The notes below the pieces were generated by a model that saw only the letters and a list, made by a program, of their open reading frames with translations, did not search any database and was not told where the DNA came from. A stretch of 64,000 nt of DNA, taken from positions 3,924,001-3,988,000 of the forward strand of contig OX387201.1 in the NCBI GenBank assembly GCA_947561715.1. Reading direction: 5' to 3'. This DNA comes from Ascidia mentula. Lineage: Eukaryota; Chordata; Ascidiacea; Phlebobranchia; Ascidiidae. The translations under genes and the position numbers were made by a program. Below are positions 11,417 to 59,379 of the stretch, one piece after another; positions within the stretch are counted from its first letter, which is position 1; the number at the start of each line of letters is the position of its first letter.

Positions 11417-11530
11417 TGACGTAAGCGCGCGATTTGGTCCGTTGAGCGAAGTGCGCCGAGAAAAGAAAGTCGGTCGAGCATTTTTTCTCTCGCTCTGGGT
11501 ATAAATAATGCGCTGGAAGCGCTGGTTTAG
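11417..11530 (+). promoter_or_regulatory. Core promoter: CRE-like site and TATA box
   Basis: A CRE/ATF-like TGACGTAA lies at 11417-11424, and a good TATA box, TATAAATA, at 11500-11507 in a locally GC-rich stretch. Transcription would be expected to start about 25-30 bp downstream, near 11530. An exon-like stretch with a strong donor follows (GCATAG|gtgtgagt, exon end 11660). The position fits the first exon of the secreted-protein gene whose ATG is at 12237. A CRE would suit cAMP-responsive expression, as is common for neuroendocrine precursors; that part is inference. Confidence 0.55.
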
Positions 11531-11660: not shown

Positions 11661-12236
11661 GTGTGAGTGTAGTTGACGGAACTTGACTCGTAGCATAGAG
11701 GGATGTAGTATGACAAGGCGTTCTTATACAATTCTTGCAGAAAATATGGCAGAGTTCACGATGTTTAAAATGTATTTTTTTTTGTTTAGAAAAATAAGCT
11801 TAAGCAAACAACTAAGAAACGTGTTCTTAAAAACTCTCGTATCAACAACTGCTATACATTCATCAAGTACCTTGCAACGAGAACGGAAAACGTAAGTAAA
11901 CTTATCTCGTAAAAGAAATAGGCAAAAAATATCCTGGTCTTTTTTTGTATAGCCAAGTCTTAAACTATTGCAATGCCTGCATTTTACTTTAAGGGTTCAA
12001 ATGAGACTGCTATTTACCGCCGTTTTGTTACGGGGAAATTAAAAGCCCACCGGTTTGTTTATCTTGGGCCAGTTATCAAAGCCTGGCCCCGCGAGATATT
12101 GTAAACACTCCGCTCCGGCCCGCCTTAACCTTGCGACCCCGACGCGTCGCTTTCTCACGAAACGACCGAAGAGCAAAAAAAAGTTGGCAGCATTCTTTCG
12201 AATACTAAAATTATTTTTTGATCAACAGAAACAAAA

Positions 12237-15200
12237 ATGCAGTCACCGGGAACAAGTTTGATTCTTCGCTCCGCTGCTGTTCTTATCCTGTATTTCATTG
12301 TCGTCAGCGACGCCCGCCCCACGTCACAACAAAGAAACTCTGTCGTGCACCCGAACATGGTTCATAACGTGAATCAGCACGCAAGGTGAGCCCTCAATTT
12401 TGTGAGCGACTTTGCGGGAAATGAAGGGTCAAAACCCGGCGGCGCGCCTGTCGGGCCTAAAGTGTTTTGCGAAGACGAAACGTCGCTCGCTCGAGCGCAA
12501 GTGGCGTTACGAAAACAATTACGTTGCGCGACCGGTTTTAGACGGCTCGCGACTGGCACGGGTATTCACCGAAAATAGCAATGTTGTAACCGTGATTAAT
12601 CAACAGCGTGGTAAAAAAAGCATTGGAATTGCTTGTTTTAAAATGAACTTTTTAGTTAAATCAAAAAATTTTGAATTCCACAGAACATCAGCGCGCAAAC
12701 GACACGCCGAAATTCGCGTAACGGACGAATACATGCGGTACTTGATCGAACTCAAACGCAAAATGCTGCTCAACGGAATGGTCAGCGCCTTCGAGAGCAA
12801 GAAAATAAAGGTCAGTATCGATATACAGTAATGACACTACTTGCTACAATTCACTGCATATCACTCACATACATACACACACGGGTCGTTTCCTAAAGGC
12901 GACCTGTAGTGCATTTTGGCTTGTATGTTTGCTTATTCTACGTGGTCACCCAATACATCAATTCGATCGCGAACTCGCATCGACTTTGTGTGCTAAAAAA
13001 ATAATACTCATCGCCCGCAACCCTTGCACGAAACCCCCAAACCCCCTTTGCCGCCTCACAGCCCCTCACGTGCCGCTAGCACTTCGACTTTAGCCAGTAC
13101 CGTGACAGTAGCACAATGATTTGGACAGAAAGCCAATTGTGCCGTCACAGGAGGTTATTAAAACGAACCAGCGAGCCAGATTTTACTAACAGAGTCATGT
13201 GTATGATAAAAAGGGTGTTAGAAGTTAGATTTTAACTGTGGATAAACGCTCTTGATTTTTCGGGCCTCCGCAAAACGCCTCTAGTTAGGGATAGCACCCG
13301 GCTGTTTGGCCGGATTACGGGCAACACATAAACGTCAATAAACAGGCCGCTGTGGGTCTCTGCACACGTCGTCCGCTGGGAAACAATAGACGGCCTTATT
13401 CCAGGGCACAATAACGGCCATTGACTTAAAACGAATGTTCGACTTACGCGGGAGTAGAATTTACTGCGCAATGATAAAGCTTACAAACAGATCATGCCAT
13501 AAAAGTGGAATGCAAAGTAATTTCTCAAAGCGCAACCCCTTTTGTAAAAAGTCGATTGCGAGTTCGAAATCGAATGATGTATCTGACCACAAAAAATGAC
13601 CTATTTATTACACTTAAAAACTATCAATTAAAAAGTAAATTTACAAACATATTACGATAATCATTTTTAAGGTTATATCGTAAAACACGTTTTTGTTTTT
13701 TTCACTTACAAACACTTCTGAACTAATGCTTTAGTTTCCTGTCCAAATTACATACGACAACAACACCATCACAAACATTACTAGATAGGCAAAAAAACGC
13801 GGGGCCCGTCGCAAACCTTGAGCGTTTATTCACAGATGATGAAAAACAGAGTCTTGCGACAATACTTGCGGATAAAGTACGCAAACAGCAAAAGGCGGTC
13901 ATGAGGAAGAAGGCCAAGAAGCTGGCACGCCGAGCCACCGAGAGAAGCCACACCTCTTCCCAGTAGAGGGCGTTAGAGAGAGAGAGAGATGACGTAACGC
14001 TATGCGGAAAGAGAGAACGAGTGACGTTTTCATGCTATCTCTATAGCTCCGAAAAAAACTGACTGCTACATATACGCCGCAAACTTCGCCGCCACCCTTA
14101 TAAACTGTGAACTGTGCGCCTTTTTTTATACATATTATACATATACTATTTATTTTTCTGCCTTGTCAACCATGGCTGCATTCCGCGATACTGTGTTTGA
14201 GATCCCCACCTTTTTTATTTATTAAATTCCACGCCGCCTATTTTCACGTGTTGCCTGCTTCACGGTGCTGTGCGTGGTTGAGCAATACGCCAGTATAATT
14301 GCTCCAATCGCGCGCGGCGCCATCAGCTATATTTCTGCATTCCTCTTTTGCGCAGCTTTTTTGTACTATTTAAAAATGCACCGTTGTTGTGCACTGTAGC
14401 AAGCAAAAAAATAACAATAAACGAAGACAGACAAAAGTTGCTTCACTTATACGCCATGAGTCTGAGCAAGACAGAGTTTGTCAGGATATATCAGTCTGTG
14501 ACGACAAGAAGGCCAGTTAAAGCGGCAGATGTAAAGAATTAGCCGGTCAAGTTCGCCAAACTAACAGCGAAAACGGCACTTAAAATCATCTCCAACTAAC
14601 GTTTTCATATCTTATCAATTGGATTTATAATACTAACACTATGACTAACAAGTCTAACACTGCATGCAGTTTATCTGAACAAAAAATCACTTTCAGCCCC
14701 AAACCCACAAAGCCGCATTGTTTTAAACTAACTGACGTGATCAACGGGTCGTTGACTCACGCACCCGACTGACCTCTGTAGCCGTGTCTTCTTCGCAGAA
14801 CCTCCAGTTTTGGACGCAGTACGACTCGTACGGCCGCCGCTACAGGCAAATGGCTAGTTTTCAGGTATTGCAACATCGCCATTCACTCATCGAAAACATT
14901 GCGTGAAGTTAAAACTGTCATTAGGCTGCTTTAAACTCGGTAGAAAGGCGACTTAAAACTCGTCGGGCAAACCTATGAGGTGTTTTGCAGCGGCGGCTAA
15001 GGTTATTTGGCCGAAGGCTAATCGGAGCTGCAGCGTTCTCCGCTTGCAGGATATTGCATGCTGGGTGTGCTTTGGTAATGTTTCACCTTCTCTGTTTGCA
15101 TGGATTGTGCTCTTTAAATATTCTGTTACTGATTCTGCCTGCTCATAATATGAAGATAAGCTTCTGGCAATAGGAAACCGAATAAAATCAGCTTCGTATT

Positions 15201-18200
15201 GCCAGGAGAGCTATTTTTTATGTTAGGATTGTGCTCTTGCTTGCTTGCTTGCTTTTCTTACTCACTACGACCACATGCAGTACTAAATTTCATATAGAAT
15301 CGCGTAATAAGGCCTTGGTTTACATTTGCTTTGTACCATTTCCAACGCCATCTCCAGGGTACATGGGACGCGGTTGCCGCAAGGGTCGAGGATCAAACCT
15401 GATAGCATTTGCCAACATTTGCGTCGCGTGTTGACTAATCCTGATTGACGCCGAATTCGCCGGCAAACTGGCAGCGAGATGTCAGAGATTCGTGCAAATA
15501 GCCTGTTGAATCACTTTATCACCACGCAAGCCTGCGGGCGCAAGAAAGATGTTGTCGCGCGAAAGCCGTTTTCACGGGTTTCGGCACACGCAAATTCACT
15601 TAATCTTGGCGAGATAACAACACAATTTTGAGTTTAAAACAAACCAGACACATTTCGCGTGAACTTCGGCCATTCAGCGCACGGTAAGCTCTGGTGCAGA
15701 ACGGTTTGCCACGAAACAAATGACCACTATCGTAATCCGATCTGACAAGCAAATAATTTCGTATGATGTCATCACTAACTACTGTAACACGCTTTCACTT
15801 CAGCAAAATGCCAAATTTGTGAAGCTATATATATGCACGAATGAAGGGGCATACAAAATGCAGATTCGATTCGATGCAGATTTGATTCCGAAATCAGGCC
15901 AATTTGGGCCTCAGTTAACGCAATTTGCCTTGCGCCGAATCCTTTGCAAGAGCCACAATCCGATGACGAAACCCACGACACAAACAAACCTTTGTATCCA
16001 ATTTCAGTTTGGTTCGACTATACGTGCTCCCAAGTCCCTACGGCGGTGGCACAACATACGCGAACAATAGGACACATTTATCGCAACGTTTTCTAAGCGC
16101 ATCCGAGTAGTCAGATAAACTCCATTTTAACCGTTACAGCCTAAAACTGTTTTGCCCACAACCGATTACGTAATCACACAGACTCGGCGTGAGTTTTGAG
16201 CGGATTCGCCGGTTGCTAATCACTGCTGTGAAACGTGACGGGAAGGTTGATATTGACCCCACAGTGGTTTATTTTTCTTTGTGAGTTGCCCACAAAGCGT
16301 AATCACCTTTCGTTTTGGTTATCCCTGGTGAGATAGCAATAACAATAGATAATTTTACGCAAAAAATTGCCGACGACCTTATTGTGACAGCGGAAGCACA
16401 AGCAACGCATATAAACAAAACACCGATGGTTAATTTAAATAACAGTGAAAAAGCATGTGCAAAAAATGGCTTTGATTTTTTTGTTGTTACCAAAGAAACT
16501 CGGACGAAAGCACGTTTCTTTGTAGGCAAGTGGAACTTGAGCGATAAGTGTAACCGTAGAATGGGCACCAACACCTGGCTGCACATGCATCTGACCCCCG
16601 GGGCAGGTGTGAGTTGTCGCACATCTCGACCTTTGTGTGAGTTTCTCGTATAAGTAAGTGAAACATTAGGTGTTTGTGAGTCAGCGGGAACAACGATCGA
16701 GGTGCAGATATTATCCACAGCGACCTGTAGCCGCCCGCTTATCTTTCGTCGCAATTTGCAAACGAGCACCACGCGCGGTATATTGGCCGTCGGCTATATG
16801 CATTAATTGCTGTGGTTGTCTGATTTCATGTAGTTTACGTATAAACATTACCACGTCCTTTGCGTTGAACCATTCCGGCGGTTAATACTGTAAACGCAGC
16901 CAAGGACCACACCGCTTCTTGAAGATTCGTAGGAAATTGGTCAACTAGTCACTAGTGGGAAAGGTACCTCTCTACAAACGTATCGTACGAACAATCGACT
17001 GATTTCTTGGCGTGATCAATTAGCCAGGACCACGAAGCACCTTTTAATGAAGCCACTGTCGGAAAGACGTCCGGGCGATGTGAGTCTTTTTATAGATAAA
17101 TCGCACAAACAAGCGTCAATCTTGAGCCAAATCGCGTCGATCAGGGTCGTTGTGTTTATTTTAACGGCAGGCAAGTGTTTAGCCCAGAGTCTAAAGGCGA
17201 CTGCTTCGTTTTCGAAAAAGAAAACCGAAAAAAAAACTTCCCACGTCCGGTAACGACTTGTTAATGATCAACAAGTTGGGACGAAACTACCCACGACAAA
17301 ACTTTCTCATTTTGAACGTTTATGAATTAAAAGAAACGTTCTCAACACAGCAGGTCCGATCAAACCCTGGCATCAATACAAGACTTGAACGATCTTGTTT
17401 CGACAAGTAAGATAAACGCACACAAAAAATGATCATACACATCGTGAATCATGAATATGTACGCTGCGCTTCTTCAAACTAATTCGTGAATGTACAGCAT
17501 TGCATCTCATGAATCTTTTAACACTGCGGTGCCAATAAAAATATCTTAAATTTGCCGCGGAATGAGAACTCCCGATCTGAACGTTTGGCCTTTATATGAC
17601 AACTTAAACCGCCTTACAAAAGTCTTAAATTCATACCACAGAAAGAGAAGGCCTCTGTTGTTCTCTCAATAGTTATATGCATGATGTGCGCGCTTGTCGT
17701 GTTTATTTCAATGAAGTGTGCGAGGTTAAAGGTGCGGAGAGTCTGTACAACAACGCGTCTCCGTAACAGCGCAAGCATGCCATTGCAATTGGTTGCATTA
17801 AATGAGCAGCTGTGCTTTTTGTTCGCCAGAAAGTCTGTTTCAAAGGCCTTTAGAAAACAACAAAATCCGTTTTTATAAAAAAACAAAAGGTCATGTTATC
17901 GCTATCTGTTTTCACCTCAAACGTGTTTTCGGTTTGTTTATGGCATGACTCATAGCATAAGAAAAAAGACTGCACCGTATATTCTCCTAAAGCGTCTTGC
18001 GGAAAACATGGGCCCTACGTGAGGCTAATTGCCAGAACAAGACGGGTCAGCTGCAGCTTATTACACAGGCTAACCGCAAACTGAACTATATTAATACAGC
18101 AGCAAGCCAGTGGCTGGCTGTCAAGCGCCAATGGCTTATCAAGCCGTGAATACATTAGGTGGTTGAAGAGGCACTCGTGATAACTTGCACTATCCCCAAG

Positions 18201-19083
18201 TGTTGGGTTACGTGCAGATTGCAGTTTGGCGTCATCGACAGGCGAGGGGTTGTTATTGGTTCATTTCTAGAAACCCTTAATCTGTTACCCCAGTGCTCTT
18301 GATAAGGGTGCAAGGGGCTGTAAGTTAATCATGCATTTGACTTTACCCGAACCTGCACAACAAACAATTGCGGTTAGGCCTTCTGTAGGTCATTAACTTA
18401 ATGTTTTCCTGTTGACTCGACCCAAGTCAAGTACAGTATCACAAACAGTTGGACCGAAACCGACGTATCGGAAAAATACAAGCGAAATTCATACAAAACT
18501 AACAAATTTTTTTTGAAAATCATGTCGCCCACACAAAAAGCAGCGACGAAGGGGGTATTCAGCTGCTTTTCTTTGCGTCCAGGTATATCCCACCCGCATA
18601 CCACATAGAAAACTGAACACGGATATTTTGAACCAGATCGACGGTAGCGAAGCGAACGGACTGCGCGTACGAGTTGTTAACACAAACCCGACGCGAATGC
18701 CAACCACCTCAGAACAATACTCAAGGTAAGCAGTTGCATAATATGTGAAAACATATTTTTATGTTTGTGAAAACATATACTATTTGAAAATAGTAACAAA
18801 ATGCTTGAAGTAAACTAGGCAAGTGAATTATTTCACGAGGCAGTAAAATATTCCAGTCCCTTTGACAAAGCAAAGTTGCATCACTTCTAAGCGGCGCGCT
18901 TAATTTTCCCTCGGCAGATACGTCCAACAAACTCACGACGCGGCTGCTGTGGCCAAAACATGCCAAGACATGCAAGAGCTCATGGCCCGAAACAATCTTC
19001 GCTTTCGCGTGAGCTGCCAGACCAACCCTTCGCGAAGGAGAGTGCCAGTCCGCTATTCCAGTCACCGTTTCACAGCAAAATGA
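12237..19083 (+). CDS. Secreted peptide/cytokine-like precursor, 5 coding exons, unrecognised family
   Basis: Proposed coding exons are 12237-12385, 12684-12810, 14799-14864, 18583-18725 and 18918-19083. Their phases (2, 0, 0, 2) match exactly and every junction is GT-AG; the sum is 651 nt, 216 residues. Residues 1-26 form a signal peptide (hydrophobic core AAVLILYFIVV, likely cut after SDA). A furin-type SARKR site at 52-56 is followed by HAEIRVTDEYMRYL. In an ungapped alignment this segment shares H1, T7, D8, Y10, R12, K20, L23 and N24 with VIP, and the HAE start with GLP-1. Exon 3 ends near a GRR triplet (104-106), the usual amidation plus dibasic signal. The last two exons encode two related units, NGLRVRVVNTNPTR and NNLRFRVSCQTNPSR. 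Only two cysteines are present, so it is not a cystine-knot factor. I cannot name a family. A class B1 GPCR ligand precursor is the best guess for the middle; the C-terminal repeats are unexplained. The splice model is by eye. Confidence 0.6.
13735..13966 (+). other. Candidate alternative terminal exon (basic helical tail)
   Basis: The acceptor ...aatgctttag| at 13734 opens a frame of 76 codons ending in TAG. It is rich in charged helix-forming residues (LERLFTDDEKQSLATILADK, then a Lys/Arg-rich run ending RATERSHTSSQ). The acceptor phase fits the signal-peptide exon (donor 12385) directly. It also fits the second exon if that uses a later donor at 12827/12828 (ATACA|gtaatg) instead of 12810/12811. 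The latter gives a 174-residue precursor, about the size of prepro-PTHrP, with the same helix-then-basic-tail plan. A random open frame of this length is possible, so support is composition plus phase only. Confidence 0.33.
13976..13990 (+). repeat. GA microsatellite
   Basis: A short GA run directly follows the TAG of the candidate terminal exon at 13735-13966. A CRE-like TGACGTAA lies a few bases further on, near 13990. No function is implied. Confidence 0.6.
14356..14542 (+). other. Second candidate alternative terminal exon
   Basis: A pyrimidine-rich acceptor (tcctcttttgcgcag) at 14355 opens 61 codons ending in TAG, again in the phase left by the donor at 12385 or 12827. The peptide contains TINEDRQKLLHLYAMSLSK and ends in a basic RRPVKAADVKN. 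Its spacing of acidic residues, Gln and leucines loosely parallels the exon at 13735-13966 (TDDEKQSLATILADK), hinting at exon duplication. A second acceptor at about 14399 would read a different frame. No transcript evidence is available. Confidence 0.25.
16526..16606 (+). other. Exon-like 81-nt segment, unassigned
   Basis: A good acceptor (cgtttctttgtag|) and a very good donor (GGGGCAG|gtgtgagt) bracket exactly 81 nt. One frame is open through it and contains NLSDKCNRRMGTNTWLHMHL. That frame is also open upstream back to about 16315. Its phase does not match the phase-0 junction between the exons ending at 14864 and starting at 18583; inserted there, it would bring an early TGA. It may be a poison cassette, an exon of another transcript, or chance. 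Confidence 0.2.
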
Positions 19084-19612: not shown

Positions 19613-19618
19613 AATAAA
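19613..19618 (+). terminator. AATAAA polyadenylation signal
   Basis: This is a canonical AATAAA hexamer about 530 nt after the TGA of the secreted-protein gene at 19081-19083. It would give a 3'UTR of ordinary length. An earlier usable signal is not obvious between the stop and this site. Confidence 0.4.
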
Positions 19619-56500: not shown

Positions 56501-59379
56501 TTGCGATTAAAATTGTAAATAACTTTTTGTTAGGATCCCCGAAAGAAAAAACAGAAGAGCAACCTTTCAAATTCGGCGACAAAGTAGAAATTAAATTCAA
56601 TCCCACGCAAATGAAGCAGATGCAGAAAGGCCACGGGGGGTGGCAACATCATATGGTTATCGTAAGTAGTTAACACTTCGTTGGAAAAAACACTCCAATC
56701 TTCACCATGATTTATAAGCTTATGAACAAACGCGGACGAGTGGAAAAAATTGATTCCGACAACGACGTTTGGGTAAAATATGAGCGGGAGGAATTGGGCA
56801 CAGATATTGTGGGTGATGGTTGCATTGGAGTTTTTAATCCCGCCGCATTGAAGAAAGCAACAGGTATGTCAACTTTTATGAAAGACCAGGTTTTATTTCA
56901 CTGTTTTTTACTTCGTCGATATAATAAAATCCAGACATAATTAGACCTGATTCTTTTAAGTATGTAATAGCCTATTTATGTGCTTGGCAAACACATAGTT
57001 TTTATCTATAAATAGGATTTGAAATGTAAAATGCCTTCCACTTGCAGAGACAACAACGTCGACATTGCAACAAGCCAGCACCACAGTTCCAAGCAATCCC
57101 GAACTGGAACCTTCCACTTCCAGAGAGCCAGAACCATTCACGGCAACATCATCTCAACAACCATCGGCCCAAGTTGTGGCCAAACCCCAACTAAAAGATT
57201 TACAAGTGTCTTCGCAAAAAGGTATTCCGCTTGGTCCACTGTAAACGTGTTATTTATATGGCGTTTAATGGTCCACTATGATACTGTGACGAAACTTGTT
57301 GCCCAACATATCCTGTATTCAAGCTAACCATCGATTTATAAGACAAAACATCAGTCCCATGTGCATAAATAGCGTAGCCGCCAACAATATTTATATGCAG
57401 TTTTGCGCAGTTCTTTTGTAATGAATTTTTGTGAATGTACAACAAACAAGAATTTTTGAGGCATTTTGACGATTTGCAGTTTTGCCGTCGACACCCAAAC
57501 AAATGTCGAAAGCAGGCTACAAAAAATCAGCTAAAGCTGATGCGGGAGAGTGTAGCAGTGGCTCTTCAGCGTCATCATCTGCGGGCCCGTCATCAGACAC
57601 ACATACGTTCAAACCAGGAGATGTTGTGAAAGTCATCTTGCCAGCAGACATCCTAAAAGATATTATGGTGGGCCTCACAGATTGCTGGAGCGACGAAATG
57701 GCAAAGGTTTGTATGTGTGTTTTTGTACTCGAACGACACTCCAACTGCTACGATTTGAATCAGGTCATAACTAAACAACAACCAGATGTCCAGACCATAC
57801 CTCGCATTAATCAAATGTGTATTGTTATATTTACAGCTCGACAGAAAGGCGATCAATGTATTTGTCATTAGTTTGTTTTCCTAGATTTTTTTCCAGATTA
57901 AGGTTTTAAATTGCAGTGATAACAAACAGAAAATAGAACTTTTTTATATTGCTGTCCTTTACCGTTTTGTTGTCCTAAAGTTAATATAGGTAACACCTGA
58001 CATACGATGTGCGAAACATCCGAAAAACGTACATGAGCGATTCTACTACATTGAATTGTCTTTTCATGAGTACCTTTTCCGGCAGATGATTGGAAAATCG
58101 GGAACCGTCCAAGCCATCAAGCCAGACAATCTCGTCCGTGTTGAATACAGTGTCGATGATACGATGGAACTAAATCTGAAAAACGTTTTTTTCAATTACC
58201 ACCGAGAGGTTTTAGTGCTGGTTCCAGGTTCGGAGACATTACGTTACAGAAAGTTACAGAAACAGAGTGTTGAACTGTGCAGAGCGTCGTAAAAATTCTT
58301 TGACTAAAAATAACTGTATATAAGACTGGTAACTTCCTTGCAAGTTAAATTTTTACTTCATTTTGTTCATCTAAACTTAACAGAAAGCTTAACTAAAACG
58401 GATTGTGCCAAAACGTGACTAATTATATTATTTCTCATACGTTTAATGTTACACAGGTGAAAAAGGTGTTGGACACAAAACCGCTATTGAGGCCTCTCCA
58501 CACTCCAAGGTAAAATTGTCATTTAAAATTTGTCATTTTAAGAAACTTGGCTAACATGAAAGAACTTGGTTAAAACTTTATAATTTCGCGTCACCTTCAT
58601 GGAAAAACGAAGCCATTCGATGACTCAGAACAAAATTGTCGCATATGCGACGACAAGGCTCCCGAGGTCATTTTCCGTCCATGTGGGCATAAAATCTTGT
58701 GCCAAGGTAAAACCAACATTTTATGACAAAAATAAAATACTAAACTTAGTTCAGCATCTTGATGTTTTTATAGAATGTGGCCTAAACTGTAAGTTGAAAA
58801 GATGTCTTTTGTGTCGACAAAGTATCAACAAAAAAGAATTTCCCCTTGAAGAGGAAACAGAAAAATTGAAAAAAGAGGTTGTTGTTTGTTTCTAATTTCG
58901 TTACAATAGAGATTTTTTTTACGATTATTACGCAAAGTTGTTTAACTTTTTAATAGAAATATATCGTCAAAAAAAATTACTCAAAATTTGTGGGCTATAT
59001 ATTCTTTAAAGACAAAAGTTTGTCCTTGCGATTTTTCATTTTCATTTTCAGCGCAATGTTGTGTTGTGAGGAACATAAAACACACTCAATATCTATAAAA
59101 AAATTTTCCAAGCACACAAAACTAAAACAATGAAGAATTACTTACTCAGACACCAAATTTTTCATGGAATTGTGTTTGCCCGGCGTAGTGGTAATCATCA
59201 CCATATACTTTCAGCTGGAAGAGATGAAGGAATTGCAAACTTGCGCCATTTGAAAGGACAGAATACGTAACCTTGTCTTCACTCCGTGCGGTCATGGATC
59301 TTGTGGTGAATGCTACCCTTGTCTTGACAAGTGTCACATCTGCAGACAAGCCATTAGCAGCGCCCAAATACAATATTGA
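53590..59379 (+). pseudogene. MIB-like E3 ligase, copy C (long form, inverted, probably decayed)
   Basis: The full long-form order is visible. C2HC exon 53590-53741; 53909-53943 (ALQELEKRRKM); acidic exon from about 54444; MIB/HERC2 1 from 54653 and about 54819-54960; ZZ about 55551-55729; MIB/HERC2 2 about 55807-55960 and 56168-56330; REP1 about 56534-56663 and 56707-56862; Thr/Ser/Pro linker about 57047-57222; REP2 about 57480-57708 and from 58086; RING1 about 58618-58707 and 58773-58878; RING2 about 59212-59379. Lesions: the ATG position of A and B is GTT (53590-53592); exon 1 is frameshifted between GNKQNEG and the finger; two bases are missing at GARVVRS (near 54661); and in RING2 the second zinc Cys codon (CAIC) is TGA at 59251-59253. 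Most middle exons remain open, so loss is recent or a truncated product from an internal start survives. Confidence 0.75.

Follow-up and report, generated by a model that had tools for sequence, protein, structure and literature searches.

A predicted five-exon precursor gene

The window analyzed here is a 64-kb stretch of DNA from the ascidian Ascidia mentula (C69:3924001-3988000 of an assembly of 195.8 Mb in 79 contigs). Its + strand carries, between 12237 and 19083, a predicted gene whose five coding exons join in frame into a coding sequence of 216 amino acids plus stop, with compatible intron phases and GT-AG borders at all four introns. Based on its processing sites and on the register-specific similarity of one segment to known hormones, the gene probably encodes the precursor of a divergent class B1 ligand of the secretin/PACAP/glucagon type, from which a 47-residue amidated peptide would be released, most likely for a glucagon-type receptor. 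The predicted gene has the following features:

12237..12385, + strand: coding exon 1, encoding the signal peptide (residues 1-26, about 12237-12314) and the first part of the propeptide
12684..12810, + strand: coding exon 2, end of the propeptide, RKR site and hormone-like segment
12694..12702, + strand: R54-K55-R56, prohormone cleavage site (from the sequence)
12703..12786, + strand: class B1 hormone-like core of 28 residues (57-84; from alignment scores)
14799..14864, + strand: coding exon 3, encoding the remaining C-terminal tail of the predicted 47-residue peptide, then GRR
14832..14840, + strand: G104-R105-R106, predicted amidation and cleavage signal (from the sequence)
18583..18725, + strand: coding exon 4, basic C-terminal region with repeat unit 1 (NGLRVRVVNTNPTR)
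18918..19083, + strand: coding exon 5 with stop, repeat unit 2 (NNLRFRVSCQTNPSR) and the only two cysteines (177 and 195)

The N terminus of the precursor (residues 1-26) resembles a signal peptide as judged by eye and by a Kyte-Doolittle profile only. The RKR site directly precedes H57 and the GRR triplet lies 47 residues downstream of this cut, giving H57-Y103-amide as the predicted peptide. At the level of the sequence, the open reading frame thus has the signals of a secreted precursor with basic cleavage and amidation, and the signal-like N terminus, the RKR at 54-56, the start at H57 and the GRR at 104-106 are all as described in an earlier annotation of this stretch (the original prediction).

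To evaluate codon usage, we trained codon tables on 16 exon stretches from the same genome (11 kinase and 5 seven-transmembrane), and the null distribution sampled the whole window, the predicted gene itself included. Random open segments of the window were joined 3000 times; none of these joins matched or beat the coding sequence in synonymous codon score, and 46 did so in full codon score. For exons 1 to 5, the shares of random open segments with an equally good synonymous score were 0.0165, 0.039, 0.016, 0.069, and 0.0335, respectively. With stops ignored, the claimed frame ranked first of six by this score in four of the five exons; exon 5 had weaker support than the others, its claimed frame ranking third behind two frames that contain internal stops. 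These data are supportive of the gene model, and the exons proposed in the original prediction hold up in this respect as they do in their in-frame GT-AG joins. A search of the precursor protein against the whole assembly for paralogues recovered only its own five exons. COX1 on C79, read with two mitochondrial codes, points to a tunicate: 13 of its 16 AGA/AGG codons align with glycines in the PDB COX1 chain that matches best, as in the ascidian code (table 13).

Exons 1 and 2 alone might form a short hormone precursor by intron retention; the reading frame would then stop at 12829-12831, the peptide would end in KKIKVSIDIQ, and exons 3-5 would belong to an alternative form or to another gene. 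The exon 2 frame is indeed open to 12831, a segment with coding score spans 12706 to 12822, and PTH and TIP39 are simple three-exon genes according to the excerpted text of PMC4354418. We nevertheless regard this arrangement as improbable, given the GT donor at 12811, the three further in-frame exons with supportive codon usage, and the position of the GRR in exon 3.

Similarity of the hormone-like core to the secretin family

The 28-residue core starting at H57 was aligned without gaps to human class B1 peptides and scored with BLOSUM62 at offsets of -3 to 3. The references comprised 12 class B1 peptides, TIP39 among them, and 11 other hormones; family membership was confirmed by Pfam matches for nine secretin-family peptides, PTH and PTHrP. 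At offset 0, the core scored 38 with VIP, 35 with GHRH, 34 with PACAP, 31 with PHM, 29 with secretin, 28 with glucagon and with GLP-2, 24 with GLP-1, and 16 with GIP. The similarity is thus family-wide and confined to a single register directly after the cut, scores being positive for 9/9 secretin-family hormones at offset 0 and negative for 9/9 at the remaining six offsets. Since the nine references score 21 to 106 against each other under the same scheme, the 16 to 38 of the tunicate peptide overlap the lower end of the range seen inside the family. The eight identities with VIP over 28 positions that had been counted previously were recovered in the alignment.

Shuffled versions of the core rarely performed as well. 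A score of 38 was reached by 1 of 20,000 full shuffles, by 3 of 20,000 with H1 fixed, and by 46 of 100,000 shuffles that preserved the hydrophobic pattern, and none of the latter 100,000 reached the nine-hormone mean of 29.2. When residue 1 was omitted, 6 of 100,000 full shuffles were as good. For comparison with real sequence, we scored 28-mers from open frames of the window and of the fetched loci, rather than from annotated proteins, counting repeated peptides once. Among 136,142 such 28-mers the core alone reached 38 or the mean of 29.2, and likewise among the 2,179 located behind dibasic sites, where the runner-up scored 30 with a mean of 13.0. Within the window (32,037 open 28-mers), the core ranked first with a z value of 6.4, again ahead of a runner-up with a mean of 13.0. 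A position-specific scoring matrix (PSSM) of the family gave the core 23.5 bits, compared with 12.4 for the next of 141,664 28-mers, and 0 of 200,000 shuffles reached the core's score; family members left out in turn did better than the core, with 31.8 to 48.6 bits. Loci L001-L006, which repeat the window region, were excluded only in the PSSM test and in the hidden Markov model (HMM), PTH-null and repeat tests.

None of the eleven other hormones exceeded 7 at offset 0 or 18 across all offsets, the latter value belonging to urocortin at offset -3. Membership in the calcitonin or CRF family was rejected, CRF, urocortin, and calcitonin scoring -3, -18, and -31, respectively, at the cut. Inside the precursor, the best hormone-like start is residue 57 and there is a single matching segment; a second hormone in exons 4-5 was discarded, the six best-scoring starts listed for the precursor including none there.

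Several observations weigh against this assignment. First, the N-terminal pattern drawn from the nine references (H/Y1, A/S2, D/E/Q3, A/G4, x, F6, T7; GIP has I7 and GLP-2 S7) fits the peptide at positions 1, 2, 3, and 7 and not at positions 4 and 6, where it has I in place of A or G, and V in place of the F found in 9/9 references. Second, Pfam Hormone_2 (PF00123, cut-off 21.2 bits) matched neither the segment, exon 2, exons 2-3 nor the precursor, and Parathyroid (PF01279, cut-off 22 bits) matched neither the segment nor the precursor. In control searches, 11 of 11 reference peptides, including PTH and PTHrP, matched their own Pfam family, the nine scoring 31.5 to 59.1 bits on PF00123. An HMMER profile built from the nine peptides gave the exon 2 frame a weak score of 4.5 bits, which placed it ninth among 3738 frames (best score 12.0 bits, at locus L038), with the precursor itself outside the top 12. 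These weak scores are likely caused by the loss of G4 and F6, the weightiest positions in such profiles. Third, PF00123 searched over the whole genome yielded no hormone above the cut-off, and the window was not listed. Fourth, extrapolation from the tail of the window's score distribution predicts about 4 chance 28-mers of equal score in the genome when any preceding sequence is allowed, and about 0.06 when only those behind a dibasic site are counted; both figures are rough and possibly off by tenfold. Fifth, we settled on the family comparison with the sequence already known, and the shuffle figures are optimistic because the hypothesis arose from the same sequence. Finally, KRK (74-76) and KK (89-90) inside the predicted peptide may be further cuts, and 110 residues follow the GRR, which is atypical for such precursors, as the original prediction had remarked of the C-terminal region.

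The profile check against Hormone_2 and Parathyroid that the original prediction had named is therefore negative for both families, and because this test failed, we do not place the peptide as a formal Hormone_2 member. The class B1 ligand call is supported, short of formal family membership, by the register-specific match across the family together with the receptor exons in the genome described below.

The C-terminal region bears on a different reading, in which the gene product would be a basic secreted protein specific to tunicates, class B1-like in its exon 2 helix by chance, with the repeat region of exons 4 and 5 as its functional part. The precursor has a pI (isoelectric point) of ~10.9. 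Exons 4 and 5 contain an internal repeat (NGLRVRV-VNTNPTR versus NNLRFRVSCQTNPSR; local score 35, equaled or exceeded by 21 of 5000 shuffles), and the family residues at positions 4 and 6 are lost. Pfam, NCBIfam, and PDB searches of the precursor and its fragments returned nothing convincing, the weak matches (E 0.06 to 0.15) looking like chance. Set against this, the match lies exactly in register at the cleavage site for 9/9 family members, and we consider a chance resemblance unlikely. The short repeated motif itself (window 18583-19083) matches no known family. A likeness of exon 3 to augurin (ECRG4), in a W-x3-D-x2-G-x2-Y pattern, was considered and dropped for want of a profile match; the augurin family was absent from Pfam matches at E values up to 10, a search in which HMMER filters remove most weak matches.

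Genome-wide searches returned no better ligand, with room left for hormones that start with Y, are split by an intron or have diverged further. Two sub-threshold PF00123 places elsewhere, L038 and L039, were rejected by eye, as neither has a basic site and histidine before the match; both loci had been fetched because PF00123 picked them, L039 providing the second-best PSSM 28-mer (12.4) and L038 the top HMM frame. PF01279 gave no match above the cut-off in the genome. A canonical-start pattern (two basic-type codons, H, A/S/T, x, A/G, x, F, T) occurred at three genome places, none of them hormone-like, compared with two for the reversed control.

Receptors in the same genome and proposed mechanism

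The Pfam HRM profile found 12 places in the genome, 4 of them above the cut-off, and exons of both relevant receptor types are present, in a receptor list that is incomplete. The exon at C1:21.506 Mb (receptor at 21.50-21.51 Mb) matches the PTH1 receptor best, with 77 bits compared with 53 for the secretin receptor. Two exon frames at C72:16.60 Mb match the glucagon and GLP-1 receptors best, at 99 to 101 bits, followed by the secretin receptor (93), VIPR1 (86), and PTH1R (85); the top row, 5vai, carries only the name 'Uncharacterized protein'. The C72 receptor is likely of a glucagon/GLP-1-receptor-like subtype, a call that is not firm because the scores of the secretin receptor, VIPR1, and PTH1R lie close. 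Calcitonin-type and CRF-type receptor exons, judged by eye, seem to be present as well.

The matching receptor type on C1 is one of the points in favor of reading the peptide as a PTH-type ligand of the PTH-receptor-like receptor; the study cited for ligands of this kind in tunicates is Mirabeau and Joly 2013. Excerpts of two reviews (PMC4354418 and PMC5640766) credit that study with tunicate PTH-like peptides, and our gene may be orthologous to one of those it lists. A likeness to PTH, PTHrP, and TIP39 (PF01279) is found in the predicted helix, whose stretch LKRKMLLNGMV resembles LRRRFFLHHLI. The conservative PTHrP alignment pointed out in the original prediction is real, with a score of 20 at offset -1, as is the score of 20 with TIP39 at offset -3; however, these registers are shifted, the scores are lower than that with VIP, and 57 of 4000 shuffles reached the PTH score versus 0 of 4000 for the secretin family. 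Moreover, the Parathyroid profile is unmatched, and H1-A2-E3 with T7-D8-Y10 corresponds to the secretin-family reference pattern. A PTH-type identity is thus a doubtful alternative.

For the class B1 ligand of secretin/PACAP/glucagon type that we favor, we suggest the following sequence of events. If the gene is transcribed as modeled, the signal peptide would be removed and a prohormone convertase would cut after R54-K55-R56 and at G104-R105-R106, after which a carboxypeptidase and the peptidylglycine alpha-amidating enzyme would yield H57 to Y103-amide of 47 residues. Residues 1-28 would act as the divergent class B1 ligand. The C-terminal half of the predicted helix would be held by the extracellular domain of the receptor, and H1-A-E together with T7-D8-Y10 would insert into the transmembrane core, leading to Gs activation. 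The glucagon/GLP-1-receptor-like receptor (C72, 16.60 Mb) is the most likely target; the PTH-receptor-like receptor (C1, 21.50-21.51 Mb) is a less likely one.

Around the coding exons, three further elements may belong to the transcription unit. A candidate splice acceptor ends at 12229, directly ahead of AAACAAAAATG, and a spliced 5' noncoding exon upstream of coding exon 1 is possible. The two others are candidates from their sequence motifs:

11500..11506, + strand: TATA-box-like sequence, ~0.7 kb upstream of the ATG
19613..19618, + strand: AATAAA, candidate polyadenylation signal, 530 bp past the stop

Farther along the window (37242-63819), several MIB_HERC2 and Mind-bomb SH3_15-type exons lie on both strands, some below the Pfam cut-off, which suggests a local cluster of mind-bomb-like genes or fragments. 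The runner-up 28-mer of the window (IKR followed by HINNTFTVDQAEYLFAKTLVNLLVGVWP, 57177-57260 on the - strand, mean 13) lies inside this cluster and is probably a chance match. The GC content in 2-kb windows drops from 0.41-0.47 to 0.35-0.40 near 26 kb, ~11 kb ahead of the cluster. Elsewhere in the genome, C2 carries large tandem arrays of seven-transmembrane (7tm_2) matches at 415399-1797162, 3.4-4.2 and 7.5-7.8 Mb, presumably of the adhesion type, and large protein-kinase-domain arrays occur at C1:1.99-3.01 Mb and C2:0.36-3.3 Mb, many of them spanning about profile positions 44 to 258.

Comparison with known ligands and the tunicate ligand question

Vertebrate secretin-family hormones begin directly behind a basic cleavage site, as does the tunicate peptide in its precursor. 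With VIP, PACAP, GHRH, secretin, and glucagon, the peptide has in the same register H1, A/S2, D/E3, T7, Y10, R/K12, L14, K20, and L23, each shared with some of the nine references, and an amidation signal is found in the vertebrate family and in the tunicate gene alike. It differs from the vertebrate family in having I4 and V6 for A/G4 and F6, in not matching Hormone_2, in the greater length of the predicted peptide and in the 110 extra residues with a repeated segment. The amphioxus PACAP/GCG gene, as far as the excerpt of PMC9049855 describes it, is comparable in that it comes from an invertebrate chordate and encodes divergent class B1 peptides of low similarity to vertebrate hormones. It has four exons, with the peptide exons behind the first, and makes three peptides via alternative exons, in contrast to the one matching segment of the tunicate precursor; this comparison is by description only.

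According to the excerpts of PMC2880984 and PMC7251081, tunicate genomes and transcriptomes yielded no secretin/PACAP gene, and older Chelyosoma PACAP cDNAs are regarded as unconfirmed. Receptors have been reported: excerpts describe eight secretin-family receptors in Ciona, PTHR- and GLPR-types among them (PMC2396169), and PTH-type and GCG-type receptors for which ligands are called for (PMC1764030). The main text of a 2025 Ciona neuropeptide atlas (PMC12441681) is without the terms PTH, parathyroid, glucagon, secretin, class B, and calcitonin; a Ciona CRF-like and a calcitonin peptide are listed in the excerpt of PMC7481443. Excerpts of PMC11521371, PMC5818035, and PMC11551080 contain nothing on a tunicate ligand of PACAP/glucagon type, and the literature searched, in the portions available, includes no genome-encoded one.

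We infer that the similarity reflects homology as opposed to convergence. A further, tentative suggestion is that the gene is the tunicate orthologue of the ancestral PACAP/glucagon gene and encodes the missing genome-encoded partner of the tunicate glucagon-type receptor; it would then have stayed hidden because positions 4 and 6 diverged and because of its unfamiliar, repeat-bearing C-terminal region. A genome-encoded candidate in the sister group of the vertebrates would show whether this hormone family was kept or lost there, and the ligand question could be addressed experimentally with a single synthetic peptide and a few receptors.

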